The position numbers were made by a program, and so were the translations under genes. Under the pieces are notes generated by a model. That model did not search any database, was not told where the DNA came from, and saw nothing but the letters and a program-made list of their open reading frames with translations. From contig JAINUG010000015.1 of NCBI GenBank assembly GCA_029706075.1, forward strand, positions 7,834,154 through 7,898,153: DNA of 64,000 nt, given 5' to 3'. Each line of letters opens with the position of its first letter. The stretch's first letter is position 1. The stretch comes from Aldrovandia affinis. Taxonomy: Eukaryota; Chordata; Actinopteri; Notacanthiformes; Halosauridae. Positions 17,410 through 50,104 of this stretch are shown piece by piece.

Positions 17410-19576
17410 CTACTGAATGGTGGGAAACTCTTTCAAAATGTCACAGGTCTTCTTGTGGATGACCTCACGGAGCTTGCGCACGCGGCGGACGCTGGACGCA
17501 CCCACAAAGCTGTCGGGCTGCAGGACGGCCATGCCGTTGTGCACGTCCCCCATGATGATCACCTGGCCATCGGCGCTGGTAATGTTGGGGCAGGGGCAGC
17601 TCCAGTCCATGTTCAGCAGGGTCACCTCCAAGGGCTCCTTGCCGAAAAACTTGAGCCCCATCTTTTCGTCTTTCAGGATCTCCTCCACCGTGATGAGGGC
17701 GTGGCCGGAGTCTTGGTCCTCGGTCAGCTCTGTCATGTGGCCCAGGATGACGAAGTCGCTCTTGCAGAAGCTGGTCACCATTTTCTGCCGTGGCTTGCAC
17801 ATCTTGCAGTTTTGGTTCTTGGGGAAGGGGCACATGTCCTCGCAGGCCTCTTTGCTCTCAAAGTTGTTCTCGTTGCCCCCGCAGCCCCCGTAGATGAAGG
17901 ACTGGCATTGCTTCGTCACGCCACTGTATGCCCAGCGGGGCTCGTAGGCTTTGCAGGGACCCTGCAAGCTGGGCAGGCCGCAGGGGTTGGCTAACTCCAC
18001 GCCACAGGCTCGCATGCAGGACTCGTAGGTGTCAAAGTGGTTCATGTTGTTGTTGCAGTTGCCATAGGTGAAGGTGAAGCAGTTGTTCTTCTTGGCCTCG
18101 TAGTACCAGCTCAGCCTCTCCTCCCCACAGTCTCCGCTGTCTGGCATCTTCAGGCATTCCTCTGCAGGGACGAGGGTGGAATTCTTCTGGTCTTCCTTCT
18201 TGACAGGGTCCCTCTGAACCACGGAAAGGGGAAAGTGTGCATGAATGGGACCGCCTGCGTTCTTGGCAGTGCAGGTGTAGATGCCAGCGTCCTGGATCTG
18301 GGCATTGTAGATGACCAGCTGGCCGATGTTGGTGACCACCACGTTCCCGCGGACATGGTTGGGCTTCATGACAATGTTTTCCTTCCCTTCCACCTGTTTT
18401 TCCCACGTGATCTCCGGCTTGGGCCGTCCCGTCACCTCGCACAGGAAGCTGGCGGTCTCGCCCACAGACACGGACTGGTGGGCCGGGTTGCTGACCATGA
18501 CGGGTGGCTGCACGTCCATGGGCGTGGTCTCCAGGAGAGCTGTGGTGGGGCGGACAGTGGTCTCCACGGGGAGCGGGCTGGTGTTCGGCCAGGTGAGATG
18601 GTACCTGCAGGTCACCACTGACAGGGAGATGCCCTTGGAGCAGGCTTCCGCATCCATGTAGCATCTGTTGTAGTAGGTCATGCCATCTGAGGCGCAGGTG
18701 AAGTTGGGCTCCCGCTCACAGCGGTCCCGGCACTTGCACACTGGTTGCCCGTCCCAGATGTCACACTCTGAGCCCTGCTGTGTGCACATGAACTTGTCAC
18801 ATGTCGCTTCCTTGGGCATTCCCATTGGACCTTTTTTCCCTTTGACATCCATGTAGCGGGCTGCCACACAGCTCCTGTTCCCACAGACGTTGGGACAGCA
18901 CTTCTCAAAGGTCTCACACTCCTGGACGGGAGAGAAAAAACACCCCTTTTACGTCCATCCTTATGCTGTCACATAATTTATCATTAATTTTAGTGAAATT
19001 CAGCAGCTCATCAATTTCATTTTCATTCATTTTGAGAACTTGAACTTGAAAGATGCATGAACTGGAATGTTCACAGTCACAAAAATAATTGTTTCTCTAT
19101 CACAACTTTCAATTTTAATGCAGTGCTCACTGTTAAGTATCTAATAATAATTCAAATTTTTAAACAAACCTTTAGCACATATAAACTACACACATAATAT
19201 GTATAGAATATTTCACACTATATTGGATAATCACATGTCAATTATTATTACAGAATTTATGAAAAGTGCACAAATTTTTTATCCAGTGACCATTTTATTA
19301 GAGATTGCAAAATGAATGTTACCATAACTGTCCATCCTGCAACACAACAAAGAAAAGTGATGGCAGGCTGAGGCTTACCTGATCAGATTCGCACTCCCGC
19401 ATACAGGTACTCATGGCGTCCACCCACAAATTGGGGTTCATCTCGTTCGGACAGATCCCCGCGTGAGAATACACTACTCTTGGCACAGCCATGCCCTTCA
19501 CGCGGCTGTCCATGAGCAGGATAAACCACTGTCCAACAAAGAACCAGATCCAGCGTGGAAACAGCATCCACCACAT
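17410..19576 (-). CDS. wfikkn2: WFIKKN2: secreted WAP/Kazal/Ig/Kunitz/NTR multidomain inhibitor, complete, 2 exons
   Basis: Coding exons are 19379-19576 (66 codons, starts at ATG) and 17410-18921 (503 codons plus stop TAG); the 457-bp intron has GT (GTAAGC) and AG ends and is phase 0. The predicted protein is 569 aa, close to the family's usual ~570-576. In order it shows a hydrophobic N-terminal signal segment (residues ~5-25), a WAP domain (~38-88), a follistatin/Kazal module (~107-171), an Ig domain with Cys227 and Cys283, two Kunitz domains (~322-372 and ~380-430) and an NTR domain (~438-559). The second Kunitz has Lys390 at the predicted P1 site; the first has Gly, so it is unlikely to inhibit trypsin-like proteases. 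The family is known to bind myostatin (GDF8) and GDF11 and their propeptides outside the cell. Residue agreement with what I know of mammalian WFIKKN2, and the neighbours ankrd40, luc7l3 and abcc3, favour WFIKKN2 over WFIKKN1. Confidence 0.96.
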
Positions 19577-22800: not shown

Positions 22801-23957
22801 CATCGCCTGTGTGATTAAAGGCACAAAGCTATTTTCCTTTTGTGAAATGGATTAGTGCAGCATAGACAACTTAAGTAGTAGGAGCCATAAAATTAATGTA
22901 GGTTCGGGTACTTCAATCAGTGAGTGTACTTTCTATGTTCCTTCTTCCTGCCCAATACCCACATATAGTAAGAAAGAGCTCCAAAAGCTTCAGAAAAGTC
23001 TGTGCTGATGATGGTGGTCCAAAATGTAATCTGTTTCACAGGTCGGTAATAAATGTCACAAGGTTTGTTTAGCACTGTAAATCAAGGCTGACTGAGACTT
23101 ATATGCAACTTTTACTATCATACCATATTTTCTATAAGAATTGGGCTAGAATGTCCTGACCATATTTAGGAAATTGTCTTATAGGGGGACTATATTTTCA
23201 TACTAGTTGAGTAATTTGAATAATAATTAGTGCACTTATAAGACTGGTTTGCACATTCGTAGCATGTCCAGAACTCCTGGGTTTTATTTTCTTAAAGAAG
23301 TGCCCCTGAAGGCAGTTATCTTGCCCAAGAAGTTCTTTGACCCCAAAGATTGGGAATAGGTTTAGTTTCCTTTTCCTTACAGACACCCTCTAGAAAAAAT
23401 ATAACTTAAATTCATCCATTTTCCATTTACATTGGGATGTTGCAACAAGTTTACCTTGAAGCACTACAAACAATCATTTTTATATGCAAAACAGCCACTA
23501 GTAAAAGTTCTTATCGGGAAATGTAGTATCACATGATTGGAGGAAGCCTGACACAATGCGTAGTGATGACTTGAGAGCACTTGAGAATGTTATATTTTTA
23601 ATGCAGTTAAAATGTGGGGTATCCCCCCTCCCATTTCCCAAATACATTACTGCTTATTTGGATGAATTATTTTGCATTTTCATGAAAGGACTAGTGTTTT
23701 TATAGTCGACTATCTTTATTTTTTATGAGCACAATGCTTGTTTCCTTTAGACATGTTGCTCAAAATCTAAAATTGACATTGTAAAGTTGCATAAATTCAA
23801 ACTAATGGTAACTTAGCCAACCATAAACCTCACAAGTCAAGAACAGCTGAAAAGTTACAGGATTAGAGCATTCTTTTGTCTTTTATTTTAACATCACCTT
23901 TCTTTCTCAATTTTCTTTACATTTTGGGATGGCTTACGCCTATTGTCTTGGTGCAAT
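19837..23957. other. Upstream of wfikkn2, no gene seen
   Basis: A 145-aa ORF at 21777-22214 has no recognisable domain. Probable upstream regulatory and unique sequence. Confidence 0.5.
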
Positions 23958-24282
23958 TGTAGCGGGTGAGCTCTGGTACGTGAGCATCCGCTACAGAAAA
24001 AAGTGACGTGGATAAGAGTGTGATTAGTTCCCAGAGTTAGGGACTTGAGTCTTTAGCTCAGCGAGCTAAATCGCTCTCTTGTCGCGTTGAGATCCCTCGG
24101 TTCGAAATTCGCTGCAGGTATAACCAACTCTGTTACATTGGTGCCATGACCCGGATGCTACTACTGATGGTAATCAGTCGGGCCGTGGTTGCTGCCGTAG
24201 GAGTTTCGAGGGGGAGAATGTAGCAGGTGAGCTCTGGTACGTATGTTCGAAACTCGCTGCAGGCAGAACCAACTCAGTTACA
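23958..24282 (+). mobile_element. Miniature LTR (TRIM-like) element with tRNA-like promoter in the LTR
   Basis: LTR1 (23958-24137, 180 bp) and LTR2 (24219-24282, 64 bp, lacking ~116 bp internally) both start TGTAGC and end GTTACA. Only 81 bp lie between them. That segment begins with TTGGTGCCATGACCCGGAT, which matches 16 of 18 bases of the complement of the vertebrate tRNA-His 3' end (primer-binding site), and ends with the purine run GAGGGGGAGAA directly before LTR2 (polypurine tract). LTR1 also holds TAGCTCAGCGAG (24054-24065) and GGTTCGAAAT (24099-24108), spaced like tRNA boxes A and B. Flanks CAAT/CAAC give no clear target duplication. It could instead be an internally deleted LTR retrotransposon. 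Confidence 0.7.
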
Positions 24283-25430
24283 CAACATCCTCAATCATGG
24301 CCAAACACTAGCACACTCATTCTCTGAAACCAAAGCAAAACTGCAGGACTGCGCCATTCATGCAGCTTGCTCGGTTAGACTGCAGACACACAATTTACCA
24401 CGGTAGTTGCTAGTGATAAGGTGGCAGTTATCCAGCCAACTGATACCCTTGTGCCATGTGTCATTTATGTGTCGTCATTTATGTGTACACCACTGCACTC
24501 TGCTCAGGTACCTCAGCAATGTACACCACTTGGGAGCCAATCATATTAAAAACTCCCTCTCTCCCAAAAAGTACAAGAAGTGGTTTCCTAAATTCCTGCT
24601 CAAGTGATAAAATATTATGCCTAATTTTAAATGAGAAAATAGGCTAAATAGCTAGTCATATTAAGATGACAATAAGGTCAACATTTACCCATACTGAGAG
24701 ATCAGTTTATTGTCACAATTTAGCTAAATGTTTCAATGAGTAAGCACAGCAATATCTTTAAATACATTTGAAGTTCTGACTAGTATGAGCTGCTAATCAT
24801 GTAAATTAAATCATTTACATTGTAGAAATTCCAGGGCAAAGTTGTTCATATATTGATATATGAATATAATTTGAATTTATTTTGCAATATTTATTATTTT
24901 CAATGAGTGGAAATGTGTTGAGAAGGGGATTTTGCAGAGCCATATATAAAAACAATACTGAAATCAAATGATTCTATGTTTATATTTCTTGAAAGGTCAA
25001 TGCACTGCACTGAACTCCCAAATAGAATGTGGATGAGTTCCCTTGTTTAAAACCCTACTGCACAAAGGCGTCTTACTTCTTAATCTGGGCTGGAGTCCAA
25101 TTCTTCTTGTGCAAATTCAATGTAAAAACAAGAACGCAAAACTAAACAGTTCTGCTCAAAAGCCCTTACTGCCCAGAAACTTTCTGCCCAAAATGTTACT
25201 TTGGTATTAGGTTTCCTGTCCTTGAGTCCATCTCCTCTTGAAGAGGTTAAATTCTTAAAGATAAATTATTTGTATTCAACAAAACAGTACTAGTTACTTC
25301 ATGTGCCACATTAGAGACAAATTTACTTCAGAAAAATTCTACTCGCTCTTTCATCACTGGCACATATTATTCACCTGTGGCAGTAAAACTTGAATTTGAC
25401 TATTAGGAAAATGATCCAATTATCTTAAAA

Positions 25431-33473: not shown

Positions 33474-33690
33474 TACATTTTGTAAACATTGTAAAATGTA
33501 AAATACCTTTTCCTTCCCGGTGTTACAGGTATGGTACGCAGATGCCTGCAATGATGTCTATTGCTGTATTCCTGCACTGATCTCGTGCGCTAACTGTGAT
33601 TGTTCCTACCATGTATTGATGCACATCTTGTAAGTCGCTCTGGATAAGAGTGTCTGCTAAATGCTTAAAATGTAAATGTAAAAAATGAGA
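32719..33690 (+). mobile_element. L2-type LINE 3' part nested inside the minus-strand L2
   Basis: The plus strand encodes the RT C-terminal region (LGVTLDNQLCFSSHIAAITR, ISRLDYCNSLLAGLPA, LQLVQNAAARLVF, LHWLPIAARIRFKSL) in one long ORF reaching 33381, with a frameshift near WNDLP. A 28-base A run (33443-33470) and an AT-rich 3' UTR follow, ending in GTAAGTCGCTCTGGATAAGA (33630-33663) and an A-rich end near 33690. The 5' end starts at a 31-bp palindrome. Confidence 0.85.
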
Positions 33691-41955: not shown

Positions 41956-43532
41956 CAAACCCCAATTCCAAAGAAGTTGGGACATTGTATAAAACGTAAA
42001 TAAAACAGAATGTGATAATTTGCTAATCCTTTTTTGACATTTTCAATTGAATACAGCACAAAGACAATATATTTAATGTTTTACCTTATCAACTTAATAG
42101 ATTTTTGTAAATATATGCTTATTCTGAATTTGATGCCAACAACACATTTCAAAACAATTGGGACAGAGGCAACAAAAGTAGGAATGGTCAAAAAACATCT
42201 GCTTGGAACATTCCACAGGCAAACAGGTTAATTGGAAACAGGTGAGTGTCATGATTGGGTATAAAAGGAGCATCCCCGAAAGGCTCAGTCGTTCACAAGC
42301 AAGGATGGGGCGAGGTTCACCACTTTGTGAACAACTGCGTGGGCAAATAGTCCAACAGTTGAAGAACAATGTTTCTCAACATACAATTGCAAGGAATTTA
42401 GGGATTTCACCATCTACAGTCCATAATATCATCAAAAGATTCAGAGAATCCGGAGAAATCTCTGCACGTAAGCAGCAAGGCCGAAAACCAACATTGAATG
42501 CCTGTGACCTTCGATGCCTCAGGTGGCACTGCATTAAAAACCGATATCATTCTGTAAAGGATATTACCACGTGGGCTCGGGAACACTTCGGAAAACCATT
42601 GTCAGTAAACACAGTTTGTCGCTACATCTACAAATGCAAGTTAAAACTCTACCATGCAAAGCGAAAGCCATATATCAACAACACCCAGAAACGCTGCCGG
42701 CTTCTCTGGGCCTGAGCTCATCTGAGATGGACTGACGCAAAGTGTGCTGTGGTCTGATGAGTCCACATTTCAAATTGTTTTTGGACGTCGTGTCCTCCGG
42801 GCTAAAGAGGAAAAGGACCATCCAGATTGTTATCAGCACAAAGTTCAAAAGCCAGCATCTGTGATGATATGGGGGTGTGTTAGTGCCCATGGCATGGGTA
42901 ACTTGCACATCTGTGAAGGCACCATTAACGCTGAAAGGTACATACAGGTTTTGGAGCAACATATGCTGCCATCCAATCAACGTCTTTTTCAGGGACGTCC
43001 CTGCTTATTTCAGCAAGACAATGCCAAGCCACATTCTGCACGTGTTACAACAGTGTGGCTTCGTAGTAAACGTGTGCGGGTACTAGACTGGCCTGCCTGC
43101 AGTCCAGACCTGTCTCCCATTGAAAATGTGTGGCGCATTATGAAGCGCAATATACGACAATGGAGACCCCCGGCTGTTGAGCAACTGAAGTCGTACATCG
43201 AGCAAGAATGGGAAAAGATTCTGCCTACAAAACTTCAACAATTAGTGTCCTCAGTTCCCAAACGCTTACAGAGTGTTGTTAAAAGGAAAGGTGATGTAAC
43301 ACAGTGGTAAACATGCCCCTGTCCCAGTTTTTTTGGAACGTGTTGCAGGCATCAAATTCAAAATGAGTGAATATTTGCAAAAAAACAATAAAGTTTATCA
43401 GTTTGAACATTAAATATCTTGTCTTTGTAGTGTATTCAATTGAATATAGGTCGAAAAGGATTTGCAAATCATTGTATTGTGTTTTTATTTATGTTTCATA
43501 CAGTGTCCCAACTTCTTTGGAATTGGGGTTTG
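41956..43532 (+). mobile_element. Nearly complete Tc1-family transposon (IR/DR type), 1,577 bp
   Basis: Ends are CAAACCCCAATTCC and its complement, flanked by TA target duplications (41954-41955, 43533-43534). Terminal inverted repeats are long (~216 bp; 41956-42171 and 43316-43532). Each carries a second inner copy of the AAGTTGGGAC-like motif (42143-42166, 43320-43343), the IR/DR layout known from Sleeping Beauty-type elements. Inside is a broken transposase gene. Confidence 0.93.
42305..43310 (+). pseudogene. Tc1 transposase, inactivated by a stop and a frameshift
   Basis: The likely start is the ATG at 42305 (MGRGSPLCEQ). Residues ~25-50 form the helix-turn-helix (HTIARNLGISPSTVHNIIKRF region). 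The first frame stops at 42713-42715 (TGA right after RLLWA, consistent with CpG decay of an Arg codon). A deletion of several bases about 40 bp later shifts the frame. The second open part (42744-43310) has the catalytic domain: SDES (first Asp), QQDNAKPH (second Asp) and IENVW (Glu), with exactly 34 residues between the last two, the DD34E signature of Tc1. Few other lesions are visible, so the copy is fairly young but not autonomous. Confidence 0.9.
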
Positions 43533-49951: not shown

Positions 49952-50104
49952 GGTTCTGTGTGGCTCAGTAGGTAGAGCATGGTGCTGACAGCACTTGGGT
50001 TGTGGGTTCAGTTCCCACTGGGACCACATATATTGAAAAATGTATGCATTCAGTACTGTAAGTCGCTTTGGATAAAAGCATCAGCTAAATGGCATATATA
50101 TATA
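49952..50104 (+). mobile_element. Short tRNA-derived SINE with an L2-like tail
   Basis: The tRNA-like head is GTGGCTCAGTAGGTAGAGCA (box A), with a weaker box B GGGTTCAGTTCC. It is joined to the tail GTAAGTCGCTTTGGATAAAA (50058-50090) and a short (TA)n. The tail matches the 3' end of the L2 LINEs at 1.57 kb and 33.63 kb. Confidence 0.8.

Follow-up and report, generated by a model that had tools for sequence, protein, structure and literature searches.

A probable Helenus-like TRIM in a fish genome and fused insertions that suggest its co-packaging with three Ty3/Gypsy families

The window, that is, the whole stretch of 64,000 nucleotides of Aldrovandia affinis DNA that was analysed, contains at 23958-24282 a first LTR of 180 bp (LTR1), an 81-bp interior and a heavily deleted second LTR (LTR2; Table 1). 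Direct repeats at 23958-23981 and 24219-24242, which are 96% alike, represent the 5' ends of the two LTRs, and those at 24100-24137 and 24245-24282, which are 89% alike, their 3' ends, giving 24 + 38 bp in common with 5 differences. An earlier, sequence-only reading had described two repeats around 81 bp that hold a tRNA-His primer-binding site and a polypurine tract, all of which are indeed present. It had also stated that LTR2 lacks the tRNA-like part; this is correct for box A, which lies within the approximately 115 bp that are missing, but a box-B-like stretch has been retained. The four bases on either side of the element, CAAT and CAAC, match at three positions and look like a decayed 4-bp target duplication.

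Table 1. Features of the element in the window (positions are those of the window)
Feature	Position	Strand	Remark
Putative left target duplication copy, CAAT	23954..23957	+	vs CAAC, 3/4 alike
LTR1, 180 bp, TGTAGCGG...GTTACA	23958..24137	+	other copies read ~177 bp
5' LTR hairpin, TGTAGCGG...CCGCTACA	23958..23995	+	strong fold, covariation at chance
Box-A-like TAGCTCAGCGAG	24054..24065	+	11/12
Box-B-like GGTTCGAAATT	24099..24109	+	9/11; 45 nt past box A, start-to-start
Interior, 81 bp, non-coding	24138..24218	+	
tRNA-His primer-binding site TGGTGCCATGACCCGGAT	24139..24156	+	17/18 vs four tRNA-His genes from same genome
Interior stem-loop	24161..24180	+	one mismatched pair in window copy
Polypurine tract GAGGGGGAGAA	24208..24218	+	directly before TG of LTR2
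LTR2, 64 bp, internal deletion	24219..24282	+	LTR positions about 25-142 gone
Putative right target duplication copy, CAAC	24283..24286	+	

The element lies about 5 kb upstream of a 511-residue open frame on the minus strand (17410-18945) with Kazal, Ig, two Kunitz and NTR domains, which we take to be a WFIKKN-type gene. Further along the plus strand, a Tc1/mariner-type transposase occupies two adjacent frames at 42182-43310, HTH then DDE_3. A tRNA-Val-like head placed directly before a UnaL2 LINE tail forms a SINE at 49952-50098 (+), and a second UnaL2 tail is found at 33617-33670 (+).

A search of the genome from which the window comes (1,222,302,279 bases, 1.22 Gb) showed the family to be repeated genome-wide, with at least 86 matches to the whole element (40 of 3098 candidate places scored). 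Most of the other copies read are built as LTR 177 bp, interior 81 bp and LTR 177 bp, and some are truncated. A search with the LTR only, which carries no bias toward the interior, returned at least 73 LTRs (40 of 3335 candidates scored) in 38 clusters of same-strand matches within 15 kb, 29 of them with two or more LTRs and 9 with a single one. Among the matches listed, successive LTR starts are consistently separated by 251 to 259 bp (177 + 81) in 27 of the 29 multi-LTR clusters, including one of three LTRs with one spacing of 251 bp (C147). The two remaining clusters are a 448-bp case, in which about 190 bp are inserted in the interior, and the fusion on C2088 described below. These counts are lower bounds, and the sample is skewed to query-like copies. 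Genome-wide, at least 207 exact occurrences of the LTR end joined to the primer site were counted, against none of the reversed control.

In 48 loci read, both outer ends are present for 34 units, of which 27 carry an exact 4-bp duplication; this count omits L025, L042 and L043, which repeat array L009, L028 and L027, respectively (L025 was also omitted from the interior survey and from the survey of boxes and signals in 59 LTRs). The 27 exact duplications tend toward the palindrome YATR, with C in 16 and T in 6 at the first position, A in 14 at the second, T in 14 at the third, and G in 15 and A in 9 at the fourth. An exact duplication flanks seven of the eight single LTRs fetched, out of nine in all. 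LTR pairs are identical in 9 of 35 cases, with a median difference of 1.7%. From the LTR spacing, the exact 4-bp duplications and the identical LTR pairs, it follows that the family is a real, recently mobile TRIM. Its 177-81-177 layout combines two short LTRs (<1000 bp), a non-coding interior, a primer site and a polypurine tract, and many copies share the 81-bp interior, the LTR length and the duplications, which the sequence-only reading had set as a test of a TRIM family. We file the element as Helenus-like and not as a new kind, likening it by described features and not by sequence to named families.

Some copies form arrays. Six LTRs and five interiors lie inside one pair of CATG duplications in L009, three LTRs lie inside CACG duplications in L027, and a further three make up L031, which has no exact duplication. 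The L031 array faces, on the opposite strand, a stump of the LTR of Gypsy family A (positions 1-90; family described below) that is joined with a 3-bp overlap to Helenus interior positions 1-31 (L031:267-381).

The assessment of the promoter depends on the spacing of the two boxes. Taken alone, the box-A-like and box-B-like stretches of the window LTR are equalled in 14% and 21%, respectively, of 2000 mononucleotide shuffles; as a pair at the tRNA-like distance, they are equalled in 0.75% of 2000 (0.45% of shuffles for the L005 LTR). TAGCT and GGTTC are present in the family, and the YGG of box A occurs in some copies only (TAGCTCGG) and is absent from the window copy. LTR comparisons used chosen sets of 21 and 14 LTRs; across the 14, conservation values were 0.057 for box B, 0.117 for box A and 0.108 for the whole LTR, box B alone being better conserved. 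Alignment speaks little for a tRNA origin: the LTR matched two tRNA sequences at near-chance level (21 to 161 of 500 shuffles as good). Rfam gave no tRNA match at E<=10 in three loci (L001, L005 and L022), and ARAGORN, run on three LTRs, found nothing at first and made implausible calls in a permissive run. The first 73 or so bases of the L005 LTR align weakly with the head of the tRNA-Val SINE of the window (equalled by 21 of 500 shuffles; six such tests were made), and the 5' part of this LTR is perhaps a second worn tRNA-like unit. We consider it likely that the LTR carries a tRNA-like Pol III promoter. The comparison with the Pol III-type promoter of Cassandra, made in the sequence-only reading, is plausible; the tRNA likeness is weak outside the two boxes.

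Alternatively, the family might be a Pol II TRIM, transcribed from a TATAAG/TGACGT stretch upstream of the tRNA-like part, with boxes A and B as relics or products of chance. TATAAG is present in 39 of 59 LTRs (in L005 about 43 bp before box A) and would suit Pol II too, and the low similarity to tRNAs in Rfam and in the alignments agrees with this view. Moreover, 57 of the 59 LTRs have no TTTT, so that it is not evident where Pol III would stop in the 3' LTR. Against it, neither AATAAA nor ATTAAA occurs in any of the 59 Helenus-like LTRs (AATAAA is found in the LTRs of the Gypsy families described below, by eye in A, in 2 of 2 for B and in 2 of 3 for C). In addition, the window copy and the older LTRs that were compared have GATAAG in place of TATAAG, yet they moved. 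On balance, transcription by Pol II seems rather unlikely, and we continue with the Pol III promoter as the preferred reading.

The primer-binding site of the window copy scores 16 of 18 against the textbook complement of tRNA-His, which is also the figure first reported for it. A tRNA-His probe matched 13 places in the same genome, and the four that were fetched are tRNA-His (gtg) genes according to ARAGORN. They end in ATCCGGGTCACGGCA, and the perfect primer site is thus TGGTGCCGTGACCCGGAT. Measured against this host sequence the window copy improves to 17 of 18, and other copies often reach 18 of 18, or 17 of 18 with CTC for CCC. Behind the primer site, an 8-bp stem keeps its pairing in 97% of cells across copies (27 of 35 interiors used in the alignment). 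Covariation score, paired cells and doubly changed cells were matched by few shuffles (1, 1 and 6 of 500, respectively), and the counts of changed pairs and of pair types were not above shuffles (314 and 399 of 500 as high). The signal comes mainly from one pair, and copy relatedness alone can account for those measures that exceed the shuffles. Conceivably, the stem may serve as a packaging or dimerisation signal. The 5' LTR hairpin was rejected as a conserved RNA structure, as it folds well (z -3.9 and -4.4) yet covaries at chance level.

Possible helpers came into view at a locus (L042) where a foreign LTR end with AATAAA, ...CTGCTACA, takes the place of the Helenus LTR before the interior; this end belongs to a family designated A. 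The LTRs of family A measure about 1043 bp and are 99.2 to 99.7% alike within three copies; its full primer site is TGGTGCCGTGACTCGGAT and its polypurine tract AGGGGGGAGTA. By eye, two of the three copies have exact duplications (CTTT in C657, CTTA in C1795) and one has none (C873). Pfam identified protease, RNase H and integrase in successive pieces of one copy, and RT was found on A-like pieces by tblastn from family C. Family C has an LTR of about 365 bp, with RT, RNase H and integrase in pieces (Pfam) and a protease found by tblastn from A; the copy at C2036 has CAAA on one side and is damaged at its 3' end. Its own leader, TTGGTGCCGTTCGAC, has only the 10 nt TTGGTGCCGT in common with Helenus, and its primer may therefore not be tRNA-His. 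Family B has an LTR of about 517 bp and shares 15 nt, TGGTGCCGTGACTCG, with Helenus at the primer site (presumed autonomous B); PR-RT pieces at C2056 are 49.6% identical to A and 52.5% to C. The order protease-RT-RNase H-integrase places A and C among Ty3/Gypsy elements, and B is assigned to them through the PR-RT similarity to both.

Helenus has little in common with the helpers beyond the primer site (or part of it), the polypurine tract and the LTR tips, to which may be added the 4-bp duplication shared with those A copies that show one. Descent of the Helenus interior from a Gypsy leader was considered and rejected, the two having just one 11-mer in common, with family C; shuffles did as well in 0 to 10 of 500 cases for C (seven copies) and in 170 of 500 for A. 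Likewise rejected as a source of the interior was a group of loci termed B(ii), in which an LTR of family B is followed by interior positions 1-71 (12 loci read, among them C1130, L059 and L098). Of the 16 leaders fetched behind LTR-B matches, 11 contain interior positions 2-71 with no Helenus LTR. The flanks of L059 and L111 (the two compared) are alike, and in C1130, the single copy followed beyond this point, the sequence behind belongs to a minisatellite-rich repeat and gave no helper-protein match. We therefore regard B(ii) as a single fusion embedded in a larger repeat and exclude it from the fusion count.

At several loci, a Helenus interior and LTR are joined to the LTR of one of the three Ty3/Gypsy families, at the primer-binding site in each locus read. 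In the smaller units the order is Gypsy LTR - primer site - interior - Helenus LTR, one of them (L070) with two interiors and two Helenus LTRs. Exact duplications flank the fusions with family C at C557 (TGTA), C1947 (TAAG) and C1470 (CTGG) and those with family B at C224 (CACA) and C1513 (CTGC). Two large units (7.9 and 9.6 kb) follow the scheme Helenus LTR - Gypsy interior - Gypsy LTR - Helenus interior - Helenus LTR. The one at C2088:37042-46683 reads Helenus LTR - A interior - A LTR - Helenus interior - LTR - interior - LTR between TATG and TATG, has the A leader after the primer site (98.9% over 281 bp) and, where its interior was read, contains stretches of A-like RT, RNase H and integrase. 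Its A LTR (L139) is split by a TTAA-flanked insertion, presumably piggyBac-like. The other, at C335:7639388-7647241, has the same order with interior and LTR of family C, lies between CAGA and CAGA, and carries a Helenus LTR of older type. Scored by eye, exact 4-bp duplications are thus present in 7 of the 8 fused units with both outer ends readable, the exception being the family B fusion at C735 (TGTA vs GTAG, no duplication). Three further fused loci miss an end (L061, where a Helenus LTR is followed by the C leader, L060 and C1829). The exact C-junction pattern occurs at 5 places and its control at none; another junction pattern, with 42 places, mixes B(ii) and ordinary A copies. The longest stretch shared by the partners at the junctions lies in the primer site and amounts to 18 nt for A, 15 nt for B and 10 nt for C.

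Matching duplications at the outer ends indicate one integration per fused unit, following the criterion of Sabot and Schulman (PMC1950507). As an element with a 5' Gypsy LTR and a 3' Helenus LTR would hardly be able to copy itself, the small fused units probably represent separate events. The exact duplications around seven of the eight fused units suggest that these units reflect co-packaging and template switching. In the cycle that we envisage, Pol III would transcribe the element from boxes A and B of the 5' LTR, the RNA would enter Ty3/Gypsy particles, where tRNA-His would prime cDNA copying, and the integrase of the helper would insert the product. The simplest account of the fusions would be that both RNAs are physically present in one particle and that the growing cDNA switches template at the primer site; a further round through the R region could give rise to the arrays.

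Fused units might also have formed after integration, by ordinary recombination of neighbouring or nested insertions with no template switching in a particle, and recombination between LTRs is indeed described as able to build tandem LTR arrays (PMC7215508). Such recombination should, however, leave no matching outer duplications, as argued in PMC1950507, whereas 7 of the 8 units have them, and the shared stretches are short for homologous recombination. We regard this origin as improbable. It is far less credible still that a gag-pol element of the usual kind, bearing these LTRs, gave rise to the window copy by deletion. At two loci a Gypsy interior is indeed enclosed by Helenus LTRs, but these interiors come from two different families, and the LTR of the respective family is retained within the unit; elsewhere in the LTR-only search the LTR spacing is that of the short element, apart from the 448-bp insertion case and the C2088 fusion. 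No set of loci with Helenus LTRs around one common gag-pol interior was seen (40 of 3335 candidates scored); apart from the two fused units, the multi-kb gag-pol interior that the sequence-only reading had named as evidence against a TRIM was not found. Finally, a tRNA SINE with a chance second repeat, as boxes A and B might have implied, can practically be dismissed given the two complete LTRs, 4-bp duplications, primer site, polypurine tract and solo LTRs, and the same features in the copies read contradict the sharing of a SINE-like part alone.

In conclusion, we are fairly confident that the element in the window is a decayed Helenus-type TRIM of about 435 bp, non-coding, with a probable tRNA-like internal promoter in its LTR, and presumably moved by Ty3/Gypsy particles in a cycle such as we infer above. 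The observation made on the single copy is confirmed, and its interpretation is partly supported. More tentatively, it is possible that one Pol III-promoted, non-coding TRIM lineage acts as a satellite that promiscuously exploits three or more Ty3/Gypsy families. Packaging would then occur via the start of the primer site, the polypurine tract, the LTR tips and perhaps the interior stem-loop, and reverse transcription across packaged RNAs would give Helenus-bounded units with a helper interior. The fused insertions suggest that several Gypsy families can mobilise in trans an element with no LTR homology to them, provided that it has the primer site, polypurine tract and LTR tips. TRIMs have no proteins of their own, and their autonomous mover is often unknown, as is stated for the partner of Cassandra (PMC7215508). 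Fused insertions can indicate helpers straight from genome sequence and can be searched for in any assembly. Among the titles and abstracts listed from openly licensed papers on TRIMs and Helenus, none reports TRIM-helper fusions in animals, and the use of such fusions as evidence of helpers seems to be new.

The plan of the element, initially taken as rarely described in fish and as a possible hybrid of SINE and LTR biology, is less novel than that, the kind having already been named Helenus (Kojima 2024, PMC10886601). Helenus is described there as a TRIM with tRNA-like sequence in its LTR (TRGCY and YGG of box A, GGTTC of box B) and is known from fish, e.g., as zebrafish LTR-11_DR. It makes 4-bp duplications in animals, uses tRNA-His, -Leu or -Lys as primers in vertebrates, and in zebrafish amounts to thousands of LTRs, with tandem arrays (PMC10886601). 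The present family is similar in its box A/B-like LTR stretches, 4-bp duplications, tRNA-His primer site and tandem arrays, and Pol III transcription, for which the term TRIMp3 is proposed, is an inference in that description too. On animal helpers, similarity of the primer site to Gypsy is offered there as evidence, whereas the present family is tied to three Gypsy families by fused insertions. The family is also reminiscent of Cassandra of plants, a TRIM with a Pol III-type promoter in its LTR and long tandem arrays (PMC7215508). The Cassandra LTR, however, carries 5S rRNA sequence, and in L001, L005 and L022 Rfam gave neither a 5S rRNA match nor a ribozyme match up to E=10, the hammerhead ribozyme being a feature of retrozymes. 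As in the template-switching complexes of plants (Sabot and Schulman 2007, PMC1950507), the fused units resemble concatenated cDNA of two RNAs inside one pair of duplications. Those complexes combine two copies of related LTR elements, whereas here a non-coding TRIM and unrelated Gypsy families are joined at the primer site.
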